Below are positions 1-64,000 of a stretch of DNA of 64,000 bases, in pieces. How positions within the stretch are numbered: position 1 is the stretch's first letter; every line of letters starts with the position of its first letter. The stretch is from contig NC_090016.1 of assembly GCF_036417845.1 (NCBI RefSeq), forward strand, positions 248,001 to 312,000. The letters run 5' to 3'. Below the pieces are notes generated by a model. That model made no database searches, was not told where the DNA came from, and was given only the letters and a program-made list of their open reading frames with translations. The stretch comes from Apteryx mantelli. Lineage: Eukaryota > Chordata > Aves > Apterygiformes > Apterygidae. The position numbers were made by a program, and so were the translations under genes.

Positions 1-14444
<14,444 letters not shown>

Positions 14445-21538: not shown

Positions 21539-42092
<20,554 letters not shown>

Positions 42093-42907: not shown

Positions 42908-45900
42908 CTACACCGAGTCCGCGTCGGGGTCTGGAAGAGAAGAGCCGTGTTGGGAGGGGGCCCAGGCGTCCGGGTGGTTGTGGGGCCCGTCCCACCATGA
43001 GGGGCCCAGGTGTCCGGTCGCCTCCAACCCAGGGGGCCCAGGTGTCCGGGTGCCCCCACCGCGAGGGGCCCAGGTGTCCGGGTGCCCCACACCGGAGGCT
43101 CAGGTGTCCCACCACGAGGGGCCCAGGCGTCCAGGCGCCCCACACTGGGGGTTCAGGTGTCCCACCCCAGGGGGCCCAGGCGTCCGAGCACCCCACCACA
43201 AGGGGCCCAGGCGTCCGGGTGCCCCACCACAAGGGGCCCAGGCGTCCGGGTGCCTCCACCCCAGGGGGCCCAGGTGTCCCAACACAAGGGGCCCAGGCGT
43301 CCGGGCACCCCCACCACGAGGGGGCCCAGGCGTCCGGGCGCTCACCGCCGCCCCCGGCCGGAGCCAACTCGCTGCGGTAGGTGACGAAGGCGTCGAAGGC
43401 GAAGAGGGCGGCCAGGACGAGGCCGAAGGTCTGGCGGGGGGGGGAGGGGGGAGGGGGCGTGGCCTCGTCAGCACGGGGGGCGTGGCCCGGCCCTTGGGTG
43501 GGCGTGGCCATGCCCGGGGAGGGGGCGGGGCCACTCACGAAGGTGGCGGCCGCCAGGGCGTCGCGGGAGGCGGCGATGGCCGCCAGCGCCGTGACGAGGA
43601 AGACGAGGGTCCCGCTGGCGGCGCGGAGGAAGTCCTGGGGGGGACGCGGGGGTCAGGGGGGCGCCGTGGGGCGCGGGGCGGGGGGGGACGTGGGGGTCAC
43701 GGATGCCGTGGGGCGTGGGGGGACGCTGTGGGGCAGAGAGGGGGGAAGTGGGGGTCAGGGACGCCGTGGGGCGTGGGGGGACGCTGTGGGGCAGAGAGGG
43801 GGGACGTGGGGGTCGGGGGTGCCGTGGGGTGCGGGGGGACACGAGGAGGGACGTGGGGGTCGGGGGGGAGACATGGGGGTCAGGGACGCCGTGGGGCGCT
43901 GGGGGACGCTGTGGGGCGCGAGGGGGGACACGGGGGTCAGGGGGGCGCCGTGGGGCAGGAGGAGGGATGTGGGGGTCAGGGACGCCGTGGGGCGCTGGGG
44001 GACGCTGTGGGTCGCGAGGGGACATGAGGAGGGACGTGGGGGTCAGGGGGATGCCATGGAGTGTGTGGGGGAGACGTGGGGGTCAGGGACGCCGTGGGGC
44101 ACAGGGGGATGCTGTGGGGCACGAGGGAGGACGTGGGGGTTGGGGGTGCCGTGGGGTGCGGGGGGACGCTGTGGGGCAGAGAGGGGGGACGTGGGGGTCA
44201 GGGATGCCGTGGGGTGTGGGGGGACACTGTGGGGCGCGAGGGGGGACACGGGGGTCAGGGGGGCGCCGTGGGGCAGGAGGAGGGACGTGGGGGTCAGGGA
44301 CGCCGTGGGGCACAGGGGGATGCCGTGGGGCGCGGGGGGGGGACGTGGGGGTTGGGGATGCTGTGGGGCGCGAGGGGGGACGTGGGGGTCAGGGACGCCG
44401 TGGGGCGCGGGGGGACGCTGTGGGGCGCGGGGGGGGAGATGTGGGGGTCAGGGGCGCCGTGGGGCAGAGAGGAGGGACGTGGGGGTCAGGGACGCCGTGG
44501 GGCACTGGGGGACGCCGTGGGGCACGAGGGGACATGAGGGGGGACGTGGGGGTCAGGCGGACGCCGTGGGGCACAGGGGGCCACCATGGGGGATGTGGGG
44601 CGTGGGGGGGCGCCGTGGGGCAGAGCGAGGACACGAGGGGGGTCGGGGGGCGCCGTGGGGCAGAGGAGGGGCCCGACGACGCGGGCGGCGACGCACCAGG
44701 CAGGCGCCGTGGGGCAGGCGGGGGGGGCGGCGCAGCAGCTGCCCCCCAAGTGCTGCCGCCCCCACCAGGGTCTGCAGCAGGGCCGGCGCCAGCGTGGGGG
44801 CGCCCGGGGGGGCCAGGAGCCCCAGCAGCCCCACGGCCAGCGCCTGCGCCCCACAGCGACCCATAGCGACCCATAGCGACACCACTGTGCCCCATAGCAG
44901 CCCCATAGTGACCCATAGCGCCCCATAGCGACACCACTGCACCCCATAGCACCCCATAGCAGCCTCATAGTGCTCCATAGCAGCCCCAGCAGCCCCACGG
45001 CCAGCGCCTGCGCCCCACAGCGACCCATAGCGACCCCACTGCGCCCCATAGCAGCCCCATAGCGACCCATAGCAGCCCCAGCAGCCCCACGGCCAGCGCC
45101 TGCGCCCCATAGCGACCCATAGTGACCCCACTGCGCCCCATAGCACCCCATAGCAGCCCCATAGTGACCCCACTGCGCCCCATAGCGACCCATAGTGACC
45201 CCACTGCACCCCATAGCACCCCACAGCAGCCCCATAGTGCTCCATAGCAGCCCCAGCAGCCCCACGGCCAGCGCCTGCGCCCCATAGCGCCCCATAGTGA
45301 CCCCACTGCGCCCCATAGCACCCCATAGCAGCCCCATAGTGCTCCATAGCAGCCCCAGCAGCCCCACGGCCAGCGCCTGCGCCCCACAGCGACCCATAGC
45401 GACCCCACTGCGCCCCATAGCACCCCATAGCAGCCCCATAGCAGCCCCAGCAGCCCCACGGCGAGGGCCTGCGCCCCATAGCGACCCATAGCAGCCCCAT
45501 AGCAGCCCCATAGCAGCCCCAGCAGCCCCACGGCCAGCGCCTGCGCCCCATAGCGACCCATAGCAGCCCCATAGCAGCCCCATAGCGACCCATAGCAGCC
45601 CCAGCAGCCCCACGGCCAGCGCCTGCGCCCCATAGCGCCCCATAGCAGCCCCATAGCGACCCATAGCAGCCCCAGCAGCCCCACGGCCAGCGCCTGCGCC
45701 CCATAGCGCCCCATAGCAGCCCCATAGCGACCCATAGCAGCCCCATAGCAGCCCCAGCAGCCCCACGGCCAGCGCCTGCGCCCCATAGCGCCCCATAGTG
45801 ACCCCACTGCGCCCCATAGCGACCCATAGCAGCCCCATAGTGCTCCATAGCAGCCCCAGCAGCCCCACGGCCAGCGCCTGCGCCCCATAGCGACCCATAG

Positions 45901-52420: not shown

Positions 52421-55400
52421 CTAGTAAGGGGAGTACCATGAGGTGGCTCTGGCCCGGCCCCTGCGGAGAGATCGGGGAGCGGCGTGGTTGGGGGGGGGGG
52501 GGGGGCACGAGGGAGGGGGCCGGGGGGCGGCGGGAGGCCCCGCCTCCCTCCCGCCCCCACCCCCCTCCCAGGGGACCCCCGGAGTCCCCCTGCCCCACCC
52601 GCCCCCCCCTAGAACCCAGGCGGCCGGGACCCTCGGCCTGCCCTGGAAGACCTGGGCCTACCCTGGAGAACCTGGGCCTACCTGGGAGGGACTGGGATCT
52701 ACTGCTCTGGAGGACCTGGGCCTACCTTGGAGGACCTGGACCTACCTTGGAGAACTGGGGTCTACTGCCCTGGGGAATGTAGGCCTACCTTGGAGAACCT
52801 CAGCCTACCTGGGAGGACTGGGGTCTACTGCTCTGGAGGACCTGGGCGTACCCTGGAGAATCTCAACCTACCTGGGAAGACTGGGGTCTACTGCCCTGGA
52901 GGACCTGGGCCCGCCCTGGAGGACTGGGATCTACTGCTCTGGAGGACCTGAGCCTACCCTGGAGGACCCGGGCCTACCTTGGAGGACTGGCATCTATTGC
53001 CCTGGAGGACCTGGGCCTACCTTGGAGAATCTCAACCTACCTGGGAGAACTGGGGTCTACTGCCCTGGAGAACCTAGGCCTACCTGGGAGGACCTGGCCT
53101 GCTGCAGAGGACTGGGGTCTACTGCCCTGGGAGGACCTGGGCCCTACCTTGGAGGACCTCAGCCTACCTGGGAAAACTGGAGTCTACTGCTCTGGAGGAC
53201 CTCAGCCTACCTGGGAGGACTGGGATCTACTGCTCTGGAGGACCCAGACCTACCCTGGAGGACCTGGGCCTGCCCTGGAGGGACTGGGATCTACTGCTCT
53301 GGAGGACCCAGACCTACCCTGGAGGACCTGGGCCTACCTGGGAGGACTGGGATCTACTGCTCTAGAGGACCCGGACCTACCCTGGAGGACCTGGGCCTGC
53401 CCTGGAGAACTGGGATCTACTGCTCTGGAGGACCTAGGCCTACCTTGGAAGACCTAGGCCTACCTTGGAGGACTTGACCCTACTTTTGAGGACTGGGATC
53501 TACTACTCTGAAAGACCTGGGCCTGCCCTGGAGGACTGGGGGTCTACTGCCCTGGAGGACCTGAGCCTACCCTGGAGAACCTCAGCCTACCTGGGAGGAC
53601 TGGTGTCTACTGCTCTGGAGGACCTGGGCCTACCTTGGAGGATTGGGGTCTACTACCCCTGGAGAACCTGGGCTTACTCTGGAAGAATAGCATCTACTGC
53701 CCTGGAGGACCTAGGCCTACCCTGGAGGACTGAGATCTACTGCTCTGGAGGACCTGGGCCTACCTTGGAGGACTTCAGCCTACCTGGGAGGACTGGGGTC
53801 TACTGCCCTGGAGGACCTGAGCCTACCCTGGGAGAGTGGCATCTACTGCTCTGGAGAAACCTGGGCCTACCTTAGAGGACCTCAGTCCTCCTGCCTTAAA
53901 AGACTTCAGCCTACATTGGAAGACTGTGCTCTACTGCCTTGGAGGACCCCCTGCCTACTGCCCTAGAGAACTCTCTGCCCACCTTGGAGGACCTCAGCCT
54001 ACCTAGGAAAACTGGGGCCTACTACCCTGGAGGACCTGGGCCTACTACCCTAGAGAACTCTCTGCCTACCCTGGAGGACTTCAGCCAACCTTGGAGGACT
54101 TAGGCCTACTCTGGAGAACCTCAGCCTAACTTAGAGAATCTAAAGTCTACTGCCGTGGAGGACCTAGGCACTCTCTATCCACCCTGGAGAACCCAAGCAC
54201 TCCCAGCCCATCCTGGAGGACTCTCTGCCCACCCTGGAGGACCCAGGCACTCCCATCCCCACCCTGAAGGACTCTCTGCCTGTCTTGGAAGACCCGGGCA
54301 CTCCCAGCCCACCCTGGAGGACTCTCTGTCTGTCTTGAGGACCCAGGCACTCCTGTCCTCACCCTGGAGAACTCTCTACACCCTAGAAGACCCAGACACT
54401 CCCTGCCCACCCTAGAGAACTCTCTGCCCACCCTGGAGGACCCAGGTACACTCTACCCACCCAGGAGGACCCAGGCACTCCCAGCCCACCCTGGAGGACT
54501 CTCTGCCTGTCTTGGAGGACCCAGGCACTCCTGTCCCCACCCTGGAAGACTCTCTACACTCTAGAAGACCCAGACACTCCCTGCCCACCCTGGAGAGCTC
54601 TCTTCCCACCCTGGAGAGCTCTCTTCCCACCCTGGAGAACCCAGGCACTCTCTATCCACCCCAGAGGACTCTCTGCCCACCCTGGAGGACCCAGGCACTC
54701 TCTGCCCACCTTGGAGGACTCTCTGCCCATGCTGGAGGACCCAGGTTCTCTCTATCCATTCTGGAGGACCCAGGCACTCCCATCCCCACCCTGGAGGACT
54801 CTCTGCCCACCCTGGAGGACCCAGACATTCTCTACCCACCCTGGAGGACCCAGGTACACTCTACCCACCCAGAAGGACTCTCTACCCACCCTGAAAGACC
54901 CACTCTCTACCCACCCTGGAAGACCCAGACACTCTCTGCACACCAGAGAACTCTCTACCCACCCTGGAGGACCCAGGCACTCCCGTCCCGTCCACCACCC
55001 CGGAGCACCCCCGGGGCCCCGCCCACCTGTAGGCCCGCCCGCGGGGGCGGCTGTAGCCGCTGTAGAAGCGGGCCCGGGCCGCGCTGTAGCCGCCGCCAAC
55101 GGCCCCGGTAGCGGGCGCGGGGGAACCCCCGGTCCGTCGTGCTGATGCCGGGCCGGTTTGTCCGCTTGGGGATCACCTGGGGAAAAGGGGGAGGGTGGGG
55201 TGGGAGGGGGGTGAGGCGCGTGTCGCCGCCGGAAGCCCCGCCTCCCCTCCCCTCCGGCCCCGCCCCCCCTCCTCACCTTAATTTGCCGGCCCCGGAAGAG
55301 GGACTCGTCGAGCGCCATCGACGTCCGCACGGACTCCTTGTCGGAGAACTCGATGTAGGCGAACCTGAGGGAGGAGCGGGAAGGGGGGCGGGGCATGAGG

Positions 55401-55557
55401 GGCGGGGTGGGGAGAGGGGGGGGGCCCAGGCGTCCGGGAGCCCCCTCCCCCGACTCCACCCCTTGGGGTGCCCGCTGTACTTGTCGCAGAGGATGGTGAC
55501 GCGGTTGACGGAGCCGCAGCCGTGGAAGTGGGCCTCGAGCTCCTCCGCCGTGGCCCA
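52421..55557 (-). CDS. PABPN1: Nuclear poly(A)-binding protein 1, C-terminal part, frameshifted in the penultimate exon
   Basis: Binds growing poly(A) tails in the nucleus and stimulates poly(A) polymerase. Minus-strand exons: 55460-55557 (enters the N gap; [23 protein letters not shown] first half), 55277-55364 ([23 protein letters not shown] second half), 55027-55176 ([20 protein letters not shown] then Arg-rich tail), 52421-52460 ([12 protein letters not shown], stop TAG 52423-52421). These match PABPN1 almost residue for residue. Exon 55027-55176 is 150 bases where its flanking phases require 3n+2. The frame of GFPRARYR and that of [16 protein letters not shown] differ by one base, with the extra base between 55085 and 55107. 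The first codon at the gap edge reads Trp where the family has Gly. The polyalanine N-terminus and coiled-coil exons are not in the sequence. Confidence 0.88.
52635..54140. repeat. About 43-bp GGAGGACCTGGGCCTACCTT minisatellite, PABPN1 last intron
   Basis: Intron 52461-55026. Units alternate with GACTGGGATCTACTGCTCTG. Open frames across it ([10 protein letters not shown]-like) are repeat by-products. Confidence 0.92.
54150..54990. repeat. CCACCCTGGAGGACCCAGGC minisatellite, PABPN1 last intron
   Basis: Second, related family in the same intron, with GGACTCTCTGCCCACCCTGG and ACTCCCAGCCCACC. It ends close to the donor of exon 55027-55176. Confidence 0.9.
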
Positions 55558-55757
55558 NNNNNNNNNNNNNNNNNNNNNNNNNNNNNNNNNNNNNNNNNNN
55601 NNNNNNNNNNNNNNNNNNNNNNNNNNNNNNNNNNNNNNNNNNNNNNNNNNNNNNNNNNNNNNNNNNNNNNNNNNNNNNNNNNNNNNNNNNNNNNNNNNNN
55701 NNNNNNNNNNNNNNNNNNNNNNNNNNNNNNNNNNNNNNNNNNNNNNNNNNNNNNNNN
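55558..55757. other. Assembly gap (200 N)
   Basis: Exactly 200 N, a common placeholder length, so the true size is unknown. It removes the 5' exons of PABPN1 and makes the linkage of everything to its right dependent on scaffolding. Confidence 0.98.
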
Positions 55758-56090
55758 TCCCCGCAAAGGGCGGCACTTCCTGTTTCACCCTGGCTCCGAG
55801 GGGGCGGGACTTCCTGTTCCGGGCCTTGGTTTTTTTTTTTTCTCCTGGATCGACGGATTTGAATAAAAAAGGGGGAACGAACAAATCGCGGCTCGTTTGC
55901 TCTGTTAGGGCTTAATGAAGGACCCGCCCCCAATTCCTCTCAGCCAATGGGGTGGATGGGGCGGAGCCTGGGCTCCTATTGGCTCTTTTGGGGGAGGGCG
56001 GTGCCCCTGCTGGTTGGGCGGGGCGCCTGTGATGTCATTGGAGGAGGAGGGGGGTGTGGTGCTACGGCAGCCAATGGGGAGGGAGCTTGG
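55758..56090. promoter_or_regulatory. CCAAT/ETS/GC-box promoter-like island
   Basis: Non-repetitive. Two ETS cores CACTTCCTG/ACTTCCTG (55774-55782, 55809-55816), four NF-Y boxes (CCAAT 55944-55948 and 56071-56075; ATTGG 55978-55982 and 56037-56041) and GC boxes (GGGGCGG near 55958). Typical of a housekeeping promoter. By position it could be that of PABPN1 (minus) or of a gene lost in the gap. Confidence 0.55.
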
Positions 56091-56104
56091 GGGCGGGTCG
56101 CCCG

Positions 56105-56625
56105 TGGGCCCAGGTGTCCGGGTGGGGTGCGGAGGGGGGGAGGAGCCGCCCCCCGTCCCCGCCCCCCAACCAGGGGGCCCAGGCGTCCGGGTGCCCCCCC
56201 TTCCCGCTGCCACCAGGGGGCCCAGGCGTCCGGCTCCTTTCGCATCAGGGGGCCCAGGCGTCCGGGGGGGGCCCAGGCGTCCGGGTGCCCCTCGCTCCTC
56301 TCCCAAACTAGGGGGCCCAGGCGTCCGGCTTCTTCCACATCAGGGGGCCCAGGTGTCCGGGACCCCCCAGTTCCCTCCCCAAACAGGGGGCCCAGGCGTC
56401 CGGGGGGGGCCCAGGCGTCCGGGTGCCTCCACTTCCCCCCCCCCTCCCCGAACCAGGGGCCCAGGCGTCCGGGACCCCCTCGTACCCTCCCCCAATGAGG
56501 GGGCCCAGGCGTCCGGGTGCCCCCCCACAACCCCCTTCCCAGAGGGGCCCAGGCGTCCGGGACCCCCCCAGTCCCTTCCCAAACCGGGGGGGGCCCAGGC
56601 GTCCAGGCGCCCCCGGACTGAGTTT
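56105..56625. repeat. GGGGGCCCAGGCGTCCGGG minisatellite
   Basis: About 14 cores of the CCCAGGCGTCCGG family, some only 18 bp apart (56,240-56,285), others about 45 bp apart. Same word as at 16.8, 42.2 and 43.0 kb. Confidence 0.9.
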
Positions 56626-56639
56626 GGGCGGGGGGGGGG

Positions 56640-58030
56640 CACCTCTGCTTGGGTCCGAAAACAGCTATTTTGGGTTTTACCATCCGGGGGGGGGGACGGA
56701 CCCTGTTTCGGGCTGAGAAACGAAACTTTCAGGGCTGCTGCTTCTGCGAAAGCGGCTTGGGGGGGGGGTGCGAAACCGGGGGGAAACCGGGCGTTTTGCA
56801 TAAAAGCGGGCGGGAAACCAGGTGTTTTTTGGAGATTGGGGGGGGGGAGAAAAAAAGGCAAATTGGGGGGTTTTGCGGTTTGGGTGAAAAAACAGCCGGT
56901 TTGGGGCGGTTGCTTTGCAGCCATTTTCGGTTTTCAGTTTTGCTGCTGCTGCTAAACGGGGAGGTTTTGCCGAAATCGAGGTTTTTCAGTGTTTTTGGAC
57001 AAAACCGGCTTCTTGGAGGCGCTTTGGTAGATAAAAGTCGCCGCGGAGGTGGTTTTGGGGCAAAAAAAGGTGCTTTGGGGGAAAAAAGTGCTTTTTGGTG
57101 GTGGAGGAGGAGGTTTTGCAGGGGAAACGTGGCTTTTTTTTTCCTTCGTGTTAAAAAAGAGGTTTTGCAGCAAATCGATTAATTTGCAGGCGGAAAACGG
57201 GCGGGAAAAGGCGATTTTTGATGGAGAAAACAGGCAGAAAAGAAGATAAAGTTGCGCACAGAGCCAAAATCGGCCGTTTTGAGAGGAAAACAGGGTGCGA
57301 AAAGGAGCGTTTGCACCAAGTGGGCAATTTGCCGATAAAATAAGGGAGAAAAGAAGCAGTTTGCCCCGAGCGGCGGCTTTTTTGGGCAGAAACCACCCAG
57401 TTTTGGGGCGGTTGCTTTAATTTTTTGCAAGTCAAATTCTCCCCCCCGGGACTTGGCCGAAAGCGGAAGATTTTGGCCCGAGAAACAGGGTGGAAAAAGC
57501 CGCGAGAGCCCGGGCGGGGTTTGGTTTTTGCAGAGAATAACCAGGTTTTGGGGTGGTTTTATTTGTCTTTTTTTTTTTTTGCAAAATTAATCCGAGCAGT
57601 TTTGCAAAATGGCCCCAAGCGTTTTATTGCAAAAACCGGCATCTTTTGCAAAAGTGTTGCAGGTGCTTTTTGCAAAGTTAACGCAAGGGGTTTTTGCAAA
57701 GATCGGGGCAGGTTTTGCAAAATTCATGCAAGCGACTTTTGTAAAATTGACCATTTTTTTTTTGCAAAGTTGAGCGTTTTTTTGCCAAGATAACGGGGGC
57801 GGTTTTGCAGAGCCAGGTAAAACCAGCAGGTTTTTTTGCACCAGAACCAGGGGTTTTGCAGCAGGGCGCCACCGTTGCACGGGAAAGCTTTGCCAAAGGG
57901 GGGGGAGGGAGGGGAGGGATTTTTGGGGTTAAACCAGGGGGTTTTGGGGCCCGAAACGGGGCCGGACAAAGCGACACACTCACACCAGGGTGTTTTTTGC
58001 CCCAAACGGGCAGGTTTTATAGCAAAAGGG
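56640..58030. repeat. Degenerate A/T-richer repeat with TTTTGCAAA words
   Basis: The least GC-rich stretch of the window. Words such as GGGAAAACAGG, TTTTGCAAAA and GGTTTTGCAG recur every 25-30 bases, especially 57,420-57,850, but no unit is regular. No reliable gene is seen in it. Octamer-like TTTTGCAT (56794-56801) and ATTTGCAG (57182-57189) are present. Confidence 0.6.
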
Positions 58031-58149
58031 GGGGCACGGCGGAGGCTGCGGGGCAGGAGGGGGCGGCGGTGGGGAGGCCCGGTGACAAGGGGCGCCGGAC
58101 GGGGGCTCGCGTCGCCTTTTTGGGGCAAATCCCGCCTCATTCGGGAAGG

Positions 58150-58670
58150 ATGGAGCTGGTGTGCCGCACCACTTGGGTTGACCTGGTGTCTCCCCTGTGG
58201 CCACCCGCGGTTGACCTGATGTCCCGTGTTGATCTGGTGTGTCCCCGCTTTGGTTGACCTGTTGTCTAGGCTGTGCCTGGGTTGACCTAGTGGCCAAGTT
58301 CATATTGGGCGACCCGGTGGCCAGTCTGTCTGGGTTGACCTGATGACTGGTGCCCACCTCGGTTGACCTGGTGGCCAAGTCCCCCCCCCCCCACCTCCTT
58401 GGGGGACCCGGTGGCCAGTGTCCACCTTGGGGGACCTGGTGACCAACGTCCCCCCCGGTTTGACCTGGTGGCCACGGTCCATCTGGGGGCTGATCTGGTG
58501 GCCAGTGTCTCCTTTAGGTGACCTGGTGTCCGAGGTCCACCTGGTTTGACCTAACATCCACCTGCGTTGACTTGGTGACCAAGGTCCACCTCGGGTGACC
58601 CGGTGTCCACCTTGGGTGATGGGTCCCCGTGTGACCTGGTGTCCACCTCCATCCCCCCCCACCCCACGAT
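58150..58670. repeat. GGTTGACCTGGTGGCCAGTG minisatellite
   Basis: About 18 imperfect 26-30-bp units. Followed by about 200 bases (58,670-58,880) of unique GC-rich sequence with no recognisable gene. Confidence 0.85.
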
Positions 58671-58884
58671 GAGCCCTCCCCCCCCCCGTGCGCCTGTCCC
58701 CGGGGCCGGGCCAACTCGTGACAGGGGCCGGCTTCATCCCCGGGGAGCTGTGGGAGCCGCGGGCTGAGGAAACATCTGCTTCCACCTCCGCGGGGCCCCG
58801 GTGAGCCACCGGTGGGGGGGGGGGGCTGGGCTCTGCTCCGCCGGGCGTCCGTCCGTCCGTCCCAGGGCTCTTTCTGTCCGTGCG

Positions 58885-60260
58885 TGCAACCATCCATCCG
58901 TCCTTCCTATGTGTGCAACCATCCATCCGTCCTCCTCTCCGTGCAACCATCCATCCGTCCTTCCTATGTGTGCAACCATCCATCCGTCCTTCTCTCCGTG
59001 CAACCATCCATCCGTCCTTCCTATGTGTGCAACCATCCATCCATCGTCCTCTCCGTGCAACCATCCATCCGTCCTTTCCACGTGTGCAACCATCCATCCA
59101 TCCTCCTCTCTGTGCAACCATCCATCCATCCTCCTCTCCGTGCAACCATCCATCCGTCCTTTCCACGTGTGCAACCATCCATCTGTCCTCCTCTCCGTGC
59201 AACCACCCATCCGTCCTTTCCACGTGTGCAACCATCCATCCGTCCTCCTCTCCGTGCAACCATCCATCTGTCCTCCTCTCCGTGCAACCATCCATCCATC
59301 CTCCTCTCCGTGCAACCATCCATCCGTCCTCCTCTCCGTGCAACCATCCATCCGTCCTTTCCACGTGTGCAACCATCCATCCGTCCTCCTCTCCGTGCAA
59401 CCATCCATCCGTCCTTCCCATGCGTGCAACCATCCATCCGTCCTCCTCTCCGTGCAACCATCCATCCGTCCTCCTCTCCGTGCAACCATCCATCCGTCCT
59501 TCCTATGTGTGCAACCATCCATCCGTCCTTCCCATGTGTGCAACCATCCATCCGTCCTCCTCTCCGTGCAACCATCCATCCGTCCTTCCTATGTGTGCAA
59601 CCATCCATTTGTCCTCCTCTCCGTGCAACCATCCATTTGTCCTTCCCATGTGTGCAACCATCCATCCATCGTCCTCTCCGTGCAACCATCCATCCTTCCT
59701 TCCTATGTGTGCAACCATCCATCCGTCCTTCCTATGTGTGCAACCATCCATCCGTCCTTCCTATGTGTGCAACCATCCATCCGTCCTCCTCTCCGTGCAA
59801 CCATCCATCCGTCCTTCCTATGTGTGCAACCATCCATCCGTCCTCCTCTCCGTGCAACCATCCATCCGTCCTTCCTATGTGTGCAACCATCCATCCGTCC
59901 TCCTCTCCGTGCAACCATCCATCCGTCCTTTCCACGTGTGCAACCATCCATCCATCCTCCTCTCTGTGCAACCATCCATCCGTCCTTTCCACGTGTGCAA
60001 CCATCCATCCATCCTCCTCTCTGTGCAACCATCCATCCATCCTCCTCTCCGTGCAACCATCCATCTGTCCTCCTCTCCGTGCAACCACCCATCCGTCCTT
60101 TCCACGTGTGCAACCATCCATCCGTCCTTCCCATGTGTGCAACCATCCATCCGTCCTCCTCTCCGTGCAACCATCCATCCGTCCTTCCTATGTGTGCAAC
60201 CATCCATCCGTCCTCCTCTCCATGCAACCATCCATCCGTCCTTTCCATACACCCATCCAC
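58885..60260. repeat. 28/29-bp CAACCATCCATCCGTCCTCC minisatellite
   Basis: About 48 units of two alternating types, one with CTCTCCGTG (28 bp) and one with TTCCTATGTGTG (29 bp). It lies just downstream of the immunoglobulin M2 exon on the minus strand. Confidence 0.95.
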
Positions 60261-60432
60261 CCATCCCTCCATCTCCCCACGCATCCTCGCACCCATCCAC
60301 CCCTTCTCCTTCCCTTGCGTCCGTCCCCTCTCGCCCCGTCCTCCTGGCGTGCTGGTGCTGGCGGTGGTGGCGGTGGTGGCGGTGGTGGTGGTGGTGGCCT
60401 CGCTGGGGACACGGCGGCGGCGGCGGCAGCGG

Positions 60433-61777
60433 CTACATGATGGGCTGGAGGCCGCTCTTGGCGCCGAGCACCGGGCCCTGCTTCAGCTGCACCACGGTGG
60501 TCAGCAGCCACTTGACCTGCGGTGGGAGGAGGAGGCCTTGGAGGACCCGGGGGGGGGGGGGGGCCCACGTTTCCACCCGCGTTGGGTTTGCACATGGGTT
60601 TTCGCACCCGCGTTGGGTTTTCGCCTGGGTTTTTGCACCCACGTTGGGTTTCCACCCGGGTTTTTGCACCCACGTTGGGTTTCCACCCGGGTTTTTGCAC
60701 CCGCGTTGGGTTTTTGCACCCACGTTGGGTTTCCACCTGGGTTTTTGCACCCACGTTGGGTTTCCACCTGGGTTTTTGCACCCACGTTGGGTTTCCACCC
60801 GGGTTTTTGCACCCGCGTTGGGTTTTTGCACCCACGTTGGGTTTCCACCCGGGTTTTTGCCCCCGCGTTGGGTTTCCACCTGGGTTTTTGCCCCCGCGTT
60901 GGGTTTCCACCTGGGTTTTTGCACCCACGTTGGGTTTCCACCTGGGTTTTTGCCCCCGCGTTGGGTTTCCACCCGGGTTTTTGCGCCCACGTTGGGTTTC
61001 CACCTGGGTTTTTGCCCCCGCGTTGGGTTTCCACCCGGGTTTTTGCGCCCACGTTGGGTTTCCACCTGGGTTTTTGCCCCCGCGTTGGGTTTCCACCCGG
61101 GTTTTTGCCCCCACGTTGGGTTTCCACCCGGGTTTTTGCCCCCGCGTTGGGTTTCCACCTGGGTTTTTGCCCCCGCGTTGGGTTTCCACCTGGGTTTTTG
61201 CCCCCGCGTTGGGTTTCCACCCGGGTTTTTGCCCCCGCGTTGGGTTTCCACCCGGGTTTTTGCACCCACGTTGGGTTTCCACCTGGGTTTTGCGCCCACA
61301 TTGGGTTTCCGCCCGGTTTTTTGCGCCCACGTTGGGTTTCCGCCCGGTTTTTTGCACCCGCGTTGGGTTTCCACCTGGGTTTTTGCCCCCGCGTTGGGTT
61401 TCCGCCTGGTTTTTGCGCCCGTGTTGGGTTTCCACCCGGGTTTTTGCCCCCGCGTTGGGTTTTTGCCCTGTTTTTTGCACCCGTGTTGGGTTTCCACCTG
61501 GGTTTTTGCCCCCGCGTTGGGTTTCCGCCTGGTTTTTGCCCCCGCGTTGGGTTTCCACCCGGGTTTTTGCCCCCGCGTTGGGTTTTTGCCCTGTTTTTTG
61601 CGCCCGCGTTGGGTTTCCGCCCGGTTTTGGCGCCGGTTCTCACCTTGCAGAGGGTGACGGTGGCGCTGTAGCAGACGCTGAGGAGGAAGAGGGTGATGAA
61701 GACGGCGATGGTGTCCCAGGGCCCGTTGAGCGGCTCGGGGCCGCCGTGGCAGAGGTCCTCGGGCAGGAGCAGCTCTG
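60433..61777 (-). CDS. Immunoglobulin heavy chain membrane exons M1 and M2 (IgY/upsilon-like)
   Basis: Encodes the transmembrane anchor and cytoplasmic tail of a B-cell-receptor heavy chain. M1 is 61644-61777 (acceptor CCCCGGCAG, donor GTGAGA): acidic linker [18 protein letters not shown], then the transmembrane segment [17 protein letters not shown], identical in this stretch to mammalian IgG. M2 is 60433-60516: [13 protein letters not shown] followed by a short tail to TAG at 60435-60433, 27 residues. IgM would have only VK after the membrane, so an IgG/IgY-class chain is favoured; in a bird that means upsilon. The constant-domain exons must lie upstream, beyond 64,000. The M1-M2 intron and the CH-M1 intron are minisatellite. 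No poly(A) signal could be identified downstream. Confidence 0.82.
60560..61625. repeat. 31-bp GTTGGGTTTCCACCTGGGTT minisatellite, Ig M1-M2 intron
   Basis: About 34 units with TTTTTGCCCCCGCG or TTTTTGCACCCACG, filling intron 60517-61643 between the two membrane exons. Confidence 0.95.
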
Positions 61778-61809
61778 CTGCCGGGGAGAGGGGTCAGTGC
61801 GCTGCCGGC

Positions 61810-62650
61810 ACACGGACCCGACCGTCCCTCCTTCCCTCCGTCCGTCCATCTGTCCATCCAACCCTCCATCCATCCCTCCCTCCATCCCTCCCTCCATCCC
61901 TCTGTCCATCCATCCCTCCCTCCAACCCTGTATCCATCCATCCCTCCATCTCTACATCCCTCCGTCCATCTCTCCGTCCATCCATCCCTCTGTCCATCCA
62001 TCCCTCTGTCCATGCCTCTGTCCACCCCTCTGTCCATCCCTCCATCCCTGCATCCATCCCTGCATCCATCCCTCAGTCCATTCCTCCATCCCTCCGTCCA
62101 TCCATCCATCCCTCCCTCCATCCCTCTATCCATCCATCCCTCTGTCCATCCATCCCTCCATCCAACCCTGCGTCCATTGCTCCATACAACCCTCCATCCA
62201 TCTCTCCATCCATCCCTGTATCCATCCATCCCTCCATCTCTACATCCCTCCGTCCATCCCTCCGTCCATCCATCCTTCCATCCCTCTGTCCATCCATCCC
62301 TCCATCCAACCCTGCGTCCGTTGCTCCGTCCAACCCTCCATCCATCTCTCCATCCATCCCTCCCTCCCTCCAACCCTGTATCCATCCATCCCTCCATCTC
62401 TACATCCCTCCGTCCATCCCTCCCTCCATCCCTCCGTCCATCCATCCCTCTGTCCATCCCTCCCTCCATCCATCCCTCCATCCAACCCTGCGTCTGTTGC
62501 TCCGTCCAACCCTCCATCCATCTCTCCATCCATCCCTCCCTCCCTCCCACCCTGTATCCATCCATCCCCCCATCGAACCCATTGTCTCTCCCTCCATCCC
62601 TCCATTCTTCTGTTCCTCCATCCATCCCTCCATCCTCCCTCTCCTCCCTC
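61810..62650. repeat. CATCCATCCCTCCATCC minisatellite with longer blocks, Ig CH-M1 intron
   Basis: Tetranucleotide-based, but organised in roughly 170-bp blocks that share TCTACATCCCTCCGTCCATC and CCAACCCTGCGTCCATTGCT. Confidence 0.9.
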
Positions 62651-62654
62651 TCTC

Positions 62655-64000
62655 CTTGCACCCGTCTGTCCTGCATCTCCCTCCTTGCATCTGTCTGTCC
62701 TGCATCTCCCTCCTTGCATCTGTCTGTCCTGCATCTCCCTCCTTGCATCCGTCTGTCCTGCATCTCCCTCCTTGCATCCGTCTGTCCTGCATCTCCCTCC
62801 TTGCACCCGTCTGTCCTGCATCTCCCTCCTTGCACCCGTCTGTCCTGCATCTCCCTCCTTGCATCCGTCTGTCCTGCATCTCCCTCCTTGCACCCGTCTG
62901 TCCTGCATCTCCCTCCTTGCACCCGTCTGTCCTGCATCTCCCTCCTTGCACCCGTCTGTCCTGCATCTCCCTCCTTGCACCCGTCTGTCCTGCATCTCCC
63001 TCCTTGCATCCGTCTGTCCTGCATCTCCCTCCTTGCATCCGTCTGTCCTGCATCTCCCTCCTTGCATCCGTCTGTCCTGCATCTCCCTCCTTGCACCCGT
63101 CTGTCCTGCATCTCCCTCCTTGCATCTGTCTGTCCTGCATCTCCCTCCTTGCATCCGTCTGTCCTGCATCTCCCTCCTTGCACCCGTCTGTCCTGCATCT
63201 CCCTCCTTGCATCTGTCTGTCCGGCATCTCCCTCCTTGCATCCGTCTGTCCTGCATCTCCCTCCTTGCATCCGTCTGTCCTGCATCTCCCTCCTTGCATC
63301 CGTCTGTCCTGCATCTCCCTCCTTGCATCCGTCTGTCCTGCATCTCCCTCCTTGCATCCGTCTGTCCTGCATCTCCCTCCTTGCATCCGTCTGTCCTGCA
63401 TCTCCCTCCTTGCATCCGTCTGTCCTGCATCTCCCTCCTTGCACCCGTCTGTCCTGCATCTCCCTCCTTGCACCCGTCTGTCCTGCATCTCCCTCCTTGC
63501 ATCCGTCTGTCCTGCATCTCCCTCCTTGCATCCGTCTGTCCTGCATCTCCCTCCTTGCACCCGTCTGTCCTGCATCTCCCTCCTTGCATCCGTCTGTCCT
63601 GCATCTCCCTCCTTGCACCCGTCTGTCCTGCATCTCCCTCCTTGTATCCGTCTGTCCTGCATCTCCCTCCTTGCATCCGTCTGTCCTGCATCTCCCTCCT
63701 TGCATCCGTCTGTCCTGCATCTCCCTCCTTGCATCCGTCTGTCCTGCATCTCCCTCCTTGCACCCGTCTGTCCTGCATCTCCCCTCCTTGCATCCGTCTG
63801 TCCTGCATCTCCCTCCTTGTATCCGTCTGTCCTGCATCTCCCCTCCTTGCATCTGTCTGTCCTGCATCTCCCTCCTTGCATCCGTCTGTCCTGCATCTCC
63901 CTCCTTGCATCCGTCTGTCCTGCATCTCCCTCCTTGCATCCGTCTGTCCTGCATCTCCCTCCTTGCATCCGTCTGTCCTGCATCTCCCTCCTTGCACCCG
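62655..64000. repeat. Highly homogeneous 29-bp minisatellite, TTGCATCCGTCTGTCCTGCA units
   Basis: About 46 tandem copies continuing past the window edge. Units differ mainly at GCATCC/GCACCC/GCATCT; two copies (near 63,780 and 63,840) carry one extra C. It is the most homogeneous array in the window. The very long minus-strand open frames here are artefacts. Confidence 0.96.

Follow-up and report, generated by a model that had tools for sequence, protein, structure and literature searches.

Membrane exons of an IgY-type gene beside PABPN1 in Apteryx mantelli point to a heavy-chain locus at the site of the mammalian T-cell receptor alpha/delta genes

Is the neighbourhood of immunoglobulin membrane exons and the MYH7-MYH6-CMTM5-PABPN1 genes in the bird Apteryx mantelli a remnant of an old arrangement of antigen-receptor genes, or a product of assembly? 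The question arises from a stretch of 64,000 nucleotides of contig NC_090016.1 (here the window; window 1-64000 is C40:248001-312000, C40 being the whole contig of 647,450 bases) in an assembly of 1,504,198,195 bases and 408 contigs (GCF_036417845.1), where a minus-strand segment of the window had been read as an IgG/IgY-type anchor separated from those genes by a 200-N gap. Reading C40:238001-542000 directly, and searching the wider genome, we find that the exons are very probably the last two of upsilon1, a gene of an immunoglobulin heavy-chain (IGH) locus that would lie within a gene block of human 14q11.2 type, IGH having stayed in place whilst the T-cell receptor alpha/delta (TRA/D) genes would have moved to another scaffold, C28. 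The adjacency probably survives from an ancient grouping of antigen-receptor genes; an assembly artefact is the less likely source.

Two membrane exons of an IgY-type gene

The elements concerned are the following.

Window 61644-61774 (C40:309644-309774), minus strand: M1 exon of IgY type (upsilon1), extracellular stalk and transmembrane helix; from translation, ag/gt splice sites and a PDB match
Window 60433-60516, minus strand: M2 exon of upsilon1, cytoplasmic tail of 27 amino acids with stop TAG; from translation, AG acceptor and the stop as read
Window 60517-61643, minus strand: M1-M2 intron of upsilon1, mostly short-unit minisatellite; read directly
Window 62600-64000, no strand assigned: tandem array upstream of M1; read directly

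An AG acceptor precedes the M1 frame and a GT donor (gtgag) follows it, and its transmembrane helix carries the membrane-immunoglobulin core FLLSxxYSxxVTL. When the joined M1 and M2 peptide (71 residues) was compared with the PDB, it matched the human IgG1 membrane segment (7wso_K, E=4e-8), with weaker matches to membrane segments of IgM (8e4c at best, E=4e-4; seven PDB sequences at E<=1), whilst a search of Pfam-A returned no family for it. Membrane exons of the IgY/IgG type are spliced before VKW and encode a tail of about 28 residues; here the M1-M2 splice precedes VKW and the tail has 27. Window 61644-61774 and 60433-60516, both on the minus strand, are in this way confirmed at the level of sequence as predicted M1 and M2 exons of an IgY-type heavy-chain gene, which upholds the original prediction for the anchor and adds a second exon to it. 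A chance match had also been considered for the 17-residue anchor segment, and was ruled out by the PDB score of 7wso_K, the correct splice sites and the second exon.

Upstream on the same strand lie four C1-set exons without an inner stop, CH1 to CH4 (C40:327236, 325348, 323316 and 322199), as in avian upsilon genes. The best 60 of 6834 PDB matches of CH4 were all heavy chains, chicken IgY among them (9odb, E=1e-33). This CH4 (C40:322199) is about 12 kb upstream of M1, and the interval consists partly of tandem repeats. In B cells, CH4 would be spliced to M1-M2 rather than ending at the secretory terminus, through alternative 3' processing, and the resulting membrane IgY would, by analogy with the IgG and IgM B-cell receptor family, pair with CD79. 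The tail tyrosine motif YRNM of human IgG, which provides the tail signal in IgG, has no counterpart in the upsilon1 M2, which lacks a tail tyrosine, whilst the M2 of a second upsilon gene, upsilon2, keeps YRNV (C40:334920-335033); such a tyrosine is typical of the IgG type and dispensable for the status of an immunoglobulin membrane exon. Its loss would remove the IgG-type tail signal from upsilon1 and leave it to upsilon2, and the two IgY classes may therefore differ in signalling.

The long, repeat-bearing interval between CH4 and M1, together with the missing tyrosine that upsilon2 has kept, would also suit a dead or orphan copy, with upsilon1 either a pseudogene or left with M exons to which no functional constant gene is attached. 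We regard this as quite unlikely, as all four CH stretches are free of inner stops, both membrane exons have open frames bordered by consensus splice sites, and no C1-set match was found between CH4 and M1.

The heavy-chain locus and the block around it

Upsilon1 belongs to a group of constant genes within a single gapless stretch. They were placed by C1-set matches (Pfam; 18 above the cut-off on C40, of 88 genome-wide) together with motif and membrane-exon matches, and positions are given in kb of C40.

Upsilon1, minus strand: CH1 327.2, CH2 325.3, CH3 323.3, CH4 322.2, M1 309.7; C1-set, motifs, membrane exons
Upsilon2, minus strand: CH1 343.6, CH2 341.5, CH3 340.1, CH4 339.1, M1 335.2; C1-set, motifs, membrane exons
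Alpha, inverted, plus strand: 357.9, 358.9, 359.9, 361.2, M 362.9; C1-set, motifs, membrane exon
Delta-like gene, minus strand: 368.7, 366.5, 366.0, M 365.5 (C40:365470-368871); between mu and inverted alpha
Mu, minus strand: CH1 376.4 (from the motif scan only), CH2 375.9, CH3 375.5, CH4 374.2, M 371.9
JH segment (AGSIDAWGRGTAVTVSS), C40:384414-384464, minus strand; strict pattern
12-spacer recombination signal sequence (RSS), C40:419780, minus strand; strict pattern
23-spacer RSS adjoining the first V, C40:422684, minus strand; strict pattern

The strict JH and RSS patterns, applied to C40:376700-452000, returned only this one JH, one 12-spacer and one 23-spacer RSS, all on the minus strand. 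Beyond them follow 32 VH-like segments (C40 422.7-450.5 kb; 14 plus, 18 minus). The stretch contains the parts of a complete IGH locus, namely V, J with RSS, mu and further constant genes, with D deduced from the single 12-spacer RSS. Many VH-like segments in both orientations are the anatomy of bird gene-conversion IGH loci, and the C40 locus is of this kind, upsilon1 being its outermost constant gene.

Alpha, delta and mu were so named from position, orientation and a comparison of membrane segments with known proteins. The membrane segment of the delta-like gene reads WTTFSTFTVLFLVLVFYSGVVTFIKV, resembling that of human IgD, and among the best 60 of 1036 PDB matches of one of its domains was human IgD (1zvo, E=4e-10); an entry named UrIg2 (E=1e-13) ranks above it, as do IgM and some chains of MHC class I, so that IgD is the likely class of this gene but falls short of proof. 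Passages of the literature describe the chicken and duck IGH loci as mu, inverted alpha and upsilon (PMC5389807, PMC3315531), and the locus here is similar in its reverse alpha between mu and upsilon, the one JH found and the many VH-like segments of both orientations. What sets it apart is a delta-like gene and a second upsilon gene, with one mu found. Certain birds, ostrich and emu among them, are described as having delta and extra mu and upsilon genes, whilst several others are without delta (passages of PMC5389807); given this patchy distribution, the place of the species among birds matters for the delta-like gene.

Between upsilon1 and upsilon2, residue identity is 43% in CH1, 47% in CH2, 59% in CH3 and 58% in CH4. 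At the DNA level their CH exons are 66-72% identical, whereas the transmembrane cores are nearly so (C40:309644-309774 and 335128-335264; 2/75 bases differ, with no synonymous change), which suggests gene conversion or strong codon constraint.

On the far side of the V genes the stretch continues into a run of non-immunoglobulin genes, the names of which, METTL3 and HNRNPC apart, are wholly or partly provisional (positions on C40).

SALL2, about 465 kb, plus strand: C2H2 zinc fingers read against the known protein; Pfam gives C2H2 only
METTL3, 468.6-471.0 kb, plus strand: tblastn; PDB E=4e-43; 7/7 genome matches on C40
TOX4, 473.3 kb, minus strand: translation read against the known protein
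RAB2, 475.0-477.2 kb, plus strand: tblastn with a RAB2A query
CHD8, 483.8-488.4 kb, plus strand: translation reading; Pfam SNF2 domain
SUPT16H, 496.7-501.3 kb, plus strand: Pfam FACT-Spt16 N-lobe
HNRNPC, 511.0-512.9 kb, plus strand: tblastn; PDB E=7e-48, against 1e-38 for Raly

Human 14q11.2 carries HNRNPC, SUPT16H, CHD8, RAB2B, TOX4, METTL3 and SALL2, then PABPN1, CMTM5, MYH6 and MYH7, around TRA/D, with PRMT5 lying between TRA/D and PABPN1, and likewise between OXA1L/SLC7A7 and PABPN1, BCL2L2 as the neighbour of PABPN1, and IGH away at 14q32. When this list is reversed, 11 of the 12 block genes placed on C40 have the same order and strand as in it, to either side of the receptor locus, PRMT5 being the exception, and IGH has the strand of TRA/D in the same comparison. 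The mutual order of MYH6 and MYH7 is no test because these names follow position; only their strand, and where they sit within the block, can be counted. Since SALL2 to HNRNPC share one gapless stretch with IGH, these seven genes put IGH in the block without reliance on the gap. Judged by gene order, IGH occupies the position that TRA/D has in mammals, between SALL2 on its V side and PABPN1-CMTM5-MYH6-MYH7 on its constant side. The likeness to human 14q11.2 thus lies in the order and strand of HNRNPC to SALL2 and of PABPN1, CMTM5, MYH6 and MYH7; the difference is that the slot holds TRA/D there and IGH here, and that PRMT5 is elsewhere on C40.

The gap, the join and the history of the site

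Whether the constant side truly adjoins PABPN1 depends on a single gap and on what flanks it.

Window 55558-55757, no strand: 200-N gap interrupting a PABPN1 RNA recognition motif (RRM) exon; N-run scan
Window 55758-56157, minus strand: promoter-like stretch abutting the gap, proposed upstream region of PABPN1; pattern counts
Window 55460-55557, minus strand: PABPN1 RRM exon, its 5' part lost in the gap; tblastn, PDB 3b4d, boundaries read
Window 55277-55364, minus strand: PABPN1 RRM exon; tblastn, PDB, boundaries read
Window 55026-55176, minus strand: PABPN1 exon, 3' limit approximate; tblastn, boundaries read
Window 52421-52460, minus strand: last coding exon of PABPN1; tblastn, 13/13 residues as in the human protein, E=0.002

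The gap (C40:303558-303757) is the sole N run in the window, as originally described, and the only one in C40:248001-533757; none was found in C40:238001-248000. The joined RRM exons matched polyadenylate-binding protein 2 in the PDB (3b4d, E=8e-45), whilst many low-complexity matches of the whole-PABPN1 tblastn search were disregarded, and two short PABPN1 exons, like one METTL3 exon, returned no family from Pfam. In the 400 bases to the right of the gap we counted two ETS, three CCAAT and eight Sp1 pattern matches, a combination reached in 0 of 2854 windows (400 bp, 100-base steps), which is suggestive only because the patterns were chosen after the sequence had been read. A tblastn search for the PABPN1 coiled coil in C40:248001-542000 gave only weak unrelated matches (best E=0.016). 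Across the whole genome, a query of coiled coil and RRM start, which excluded the alanine-rich protein start and which a short exon could escape, found a paralogue-like gene on C10 with a coiled-coil exon of its own (68% identity), the C40 exons, and weak RRM matches on three more contigs (C19, C13 and C17, 31-32%). Most likely, on this evidence together, the gap holds the first exons of PABPN1 and the right contig starts in the PABPN1 promoter. That the gap cuts PABPN1, whose coiled-coil exon turned up only in a paralogue elsewhere, and is abutted by promoter-like DNA favours the join, though short of proof. At the gap edge the exon at 55460-55557 reads TGGGCC, where the YGA of the protein needs one more G, perhaps an error of the contig end.

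An erroneous join across the 200 N, of an IGH contig and a MYH-CMTM5-PABPN1 contig from different chromosomes, had been held equally possible with a true adjacency. Besides the gap itself, passages of the literature place bird IGH loci on short contigs (PMC13320880), and a synteny-guided scaffolder or a curator could have chosen just this partner. The balance is tipped by the gapless IGH stretch reaching SALL2-METTL3-TOX4-RAB2-CHD8-SUPT16H-HNRNPC: the IGH contig itself holds seven genes of the human PABPN1-MYH6/7 block in the expected order and strand, and a random join would seldom choose that partner, that end and that orientation. We hold such an error to be very improbable.

The position of PRMT5 bears on a subtler fault, in which the pieces belong to the same microchromosome in a wrong local order and, for example, an OXA1L-PRMT5-BCL2L2 segment truly lies between the IGH constant genes and PABPN1. 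PRMT5 is at C40:8-16 kb, within C40:1-238000 and outside the stretch read, whilst the human gene sits between TRA/D and PABPN1. Against this stand the cutting of one PABPN1 exon by the gap, a coiled-coil exon found only in the paralogue-like gene, and the promoter-like right edge, and we consider a wrong order unlikely. With PRMT5 displaced, the block corresponds to the human one without being collinear throughout, and the contact between the constant genes and PABPN1 is either a later junction or dependent on scaffold order.

Several observations weigh against placing IGH in a kept 14q11.2-type block from which TRA/D has left. The join falls on an N gap whose size is nominal. To its right, the gapless stretch C40:303758-533757 measures exactly 230,000 bases and stops at an N run of at least 8,243 bases, which extends from C40:533758 to the end of the sequence examined. 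PRMT5 lies on the far side of MYH7 and not between IGH and PABPN1, so that something left of MYH7 is rearranged or mis-scaffolded. DAD1, which in other tetrapods is found close to TRA/D, is on a small scaffold (C70:54663-56301), apart from both IGH and the V cluster on C28. Searches for further expected neighbours returned no candidate on C40: BCL2L2, through the Bcl-2 family PF00452, gave seven genome matches, none on C40; SLC7A7, through PF13520, gave 16 matches (29/47 candidates scored), none on C40 or C70; and OXA1L, through PF02096, gave no match here, where 11 of 14 prokaryote controls match, a search that is weak for a spliced vertebrate gene. TRAC, through PF09291, matched neither here nor in the controls. 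Lastly, a passage of PMC12698447 states that birds have METTL3, SALL2, DAD1 and ABHD4 around TRA/D; this disagrees both with the arrangement seen here and with the opossum paper, a passage of which has METTL3 and SALL2 flanking TRA/D in mammals and not in chicken (PMC2275272). A search for NGDN through PF04000 gave a single match, on C5, a long single-exon frame that is probably UTP3. As to the round size of the IGH-bearing stretch, a scaffolder may have cut it at a round number.

As to where TRA/D lies, the 150 best among 1016 V-set candidates were scored, and 54 of these fall on C28 (6.69-7.68 Mb), all on the plus strand. Tight V-set clusters on C17, C1 (135.9 Mb), C2 and C40 adjoin C1-set matches, as expected of IGL, TRB, TRG and IGH, and scattered matches occur on C32, C34, C18, C25 and others. 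Because of its size, and by elimination, the C28 cluster is probably the putative TRA/D. In chicken, TRA/D is described as lying on chromosome 27 and spanning about 970 kb (PMC10972964).

Work on Xenopus, axolotl, newt, bowfin and bird loci, drawn on here through passages, offers a frame for this separation. In X. tropicalis IGH is flanked by SLC7A7/OXA1L on one side and ABHD4/DAD1 on the other, followed by TRA/D, and these flanks recur around axolotl IGH (PMC9911811), the V cluster of which lies towards ABHD4 (PMC12967993); in axolotl the linkage of TRA/D to IGH has been lost (PMC12529555), a precedent for TRA/D leaving the site. A newt haplotype has a SALL2-DAD1 block without T-cell receptor genes adjoining IGH (PMC12698447), bowfin carries IGH and TRA/D on one chromosome, 12 Mb apart (PMC8423624), and human TRA/D is flanked by METTL3, SALL2, DAD1 and ABHD4 (PMC12529555). 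The locus here resembles that of Xenopus in that IGH lies in a block common to the genes flanking TRA/D. It differs in that Xenopus keeps TRA/D, DAD1 and ABHD4 beside IGH, with OXA1L/SLC7A7 on the other flank, whereas here DAD1 is on C70, the searches for OXA1L and SLC7A7 gave no match on C40, and SALL2 is the immediate neighbour of the IGH V genes and PABPN1 that of the constant side. Axolotl V genes face the TRA/D side (ABHD4), as those here face SALL2.

Under the preferred reading, TRA/D and IGH would have stood side by side at this site in the tetrapod ancestor, as in Xenopus today. In the mammal line IGH would have moved away and TRA/D been kept, whilst in the line of this genome IGH would have stayed in place, with the putative TRA/D on scaffold C28. 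It is somewhat more probable than otherwise that the two lines kept opposite halves of the site from SALL2 to PABPN1-MYH6/7, mammals having exported IGH and birds, with IGH on a dot chromosome, TRA/D. The earlier suggestion of an ancestral arrangement is thereby put on a better footing by the IGH stretch running into SALL2 to HNRNPC, but its other half, direct contact of the constant genes with PABPN1 as the ancestral state, is doubtful because one flank of Xenopus IGH is OXA1L/SLC7A7 (a passage of PMC9911811) and PRMT5 is at the other end of C40. The linkage looks ancestral; the contact is probably derived.

The site of IGH in birds and the separation of IGH from TRA/D in amniotes have been hard to read because dot chromosomes assemble poorly. 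One gapless stretch bearing IGH with SALL2-METTL3 makes this history testable and links it to the amphibian arrangement, and the flanking genes could serve as anchors for finding IGH in other bird assemblies. In the titles, abstracts and passages searched among the papers listed, subscription papers lying mostly outside the search, we found no statement of IGH adjacency to PABPN1, MYH7, MYH6/SLC7A7 or SALL2. The searched parts of the complete-chicken-genome, MicroFinder and missing-gene papers yielded no mention of IGH, MYH or PABPN1, those of the missing-gene paper none of METTL3, SALL2, CHD8, TOX4 or PRMT5, and those of the Silkie paper none of IGH.

Chromosome class and the myosin flank

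A dot-chromosome class for bird IGH has already been proposed, passages of PMC13320880 attributing the short contigs of these loci to a likely location on dot chromosomes, with sequencing dropout there. C40 is small and GC-rich (GC 0.50-0.69 per 10 kb over C40:248001-502000), with minisatellite-filled introns, and may on these features be a dot-like microchromosome, possibly part of a chromosome. Tandem repeat makes up 65% of window 55758-64000. Repeat-filled introns of dot chromosomes are described as sequence stuttering (passages of PMC12954441), and the M1-M2 intron looks like an example. Across the 64-kb window there are 325 tandem-repeat rows, which overlap, with minisatellites throughout, whilst tRNA and Rfam scans of the window gave no match.

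The genes named beside the exons, MYH7, MYH6, CMTM5 and PABPN1, are present, with the qualifications given below.

Window 1-12628, plus strand: 3' part of the first MYH gene (MYH7-like by position only); its 5' exon, at C40:244.7 kb, is outside the window
Window 23034-41371, plus strand: second MYH gene (MYH6-like by position only); 5' exon, rod exons, DNA similarity to the first copy
Window 43338-43634, minus strand: CMTM5-like C-terminal part; tblastn with a human query, E=2e-9

The MYH6 and MYH7 names were given by position, without a tree. A rod exon of the first gene (window 6762-7802, plus strand) has Myosin-7 as its best PDB match (E=3e-88) and the Pfam family Myosin_tail_1, and another stretch on that side gave IQ and a weak Myosin_tail_1; the second gene has a 5' exon at 23034-23177 (E=2e-25) and DNA similarity to the first over 27534-41371. 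The CMTM5-like match has 31% identity over a span that crosses an intron, and a search for the N-terminal part found nothing, making CMTM5 the weakest predicted gene of this flank. Between the two MYH genes, a 727-bp stretch is 99.5% identical (window 9260-9986 and 37550-38276) and a 210-bp stretch 99.0% (10141-10350 and 38409-38618), the other matches among those listed being 73-98% identical, minisatellites included; the near-identical stretches probably reflect recent gene conversion between the myosin rods.

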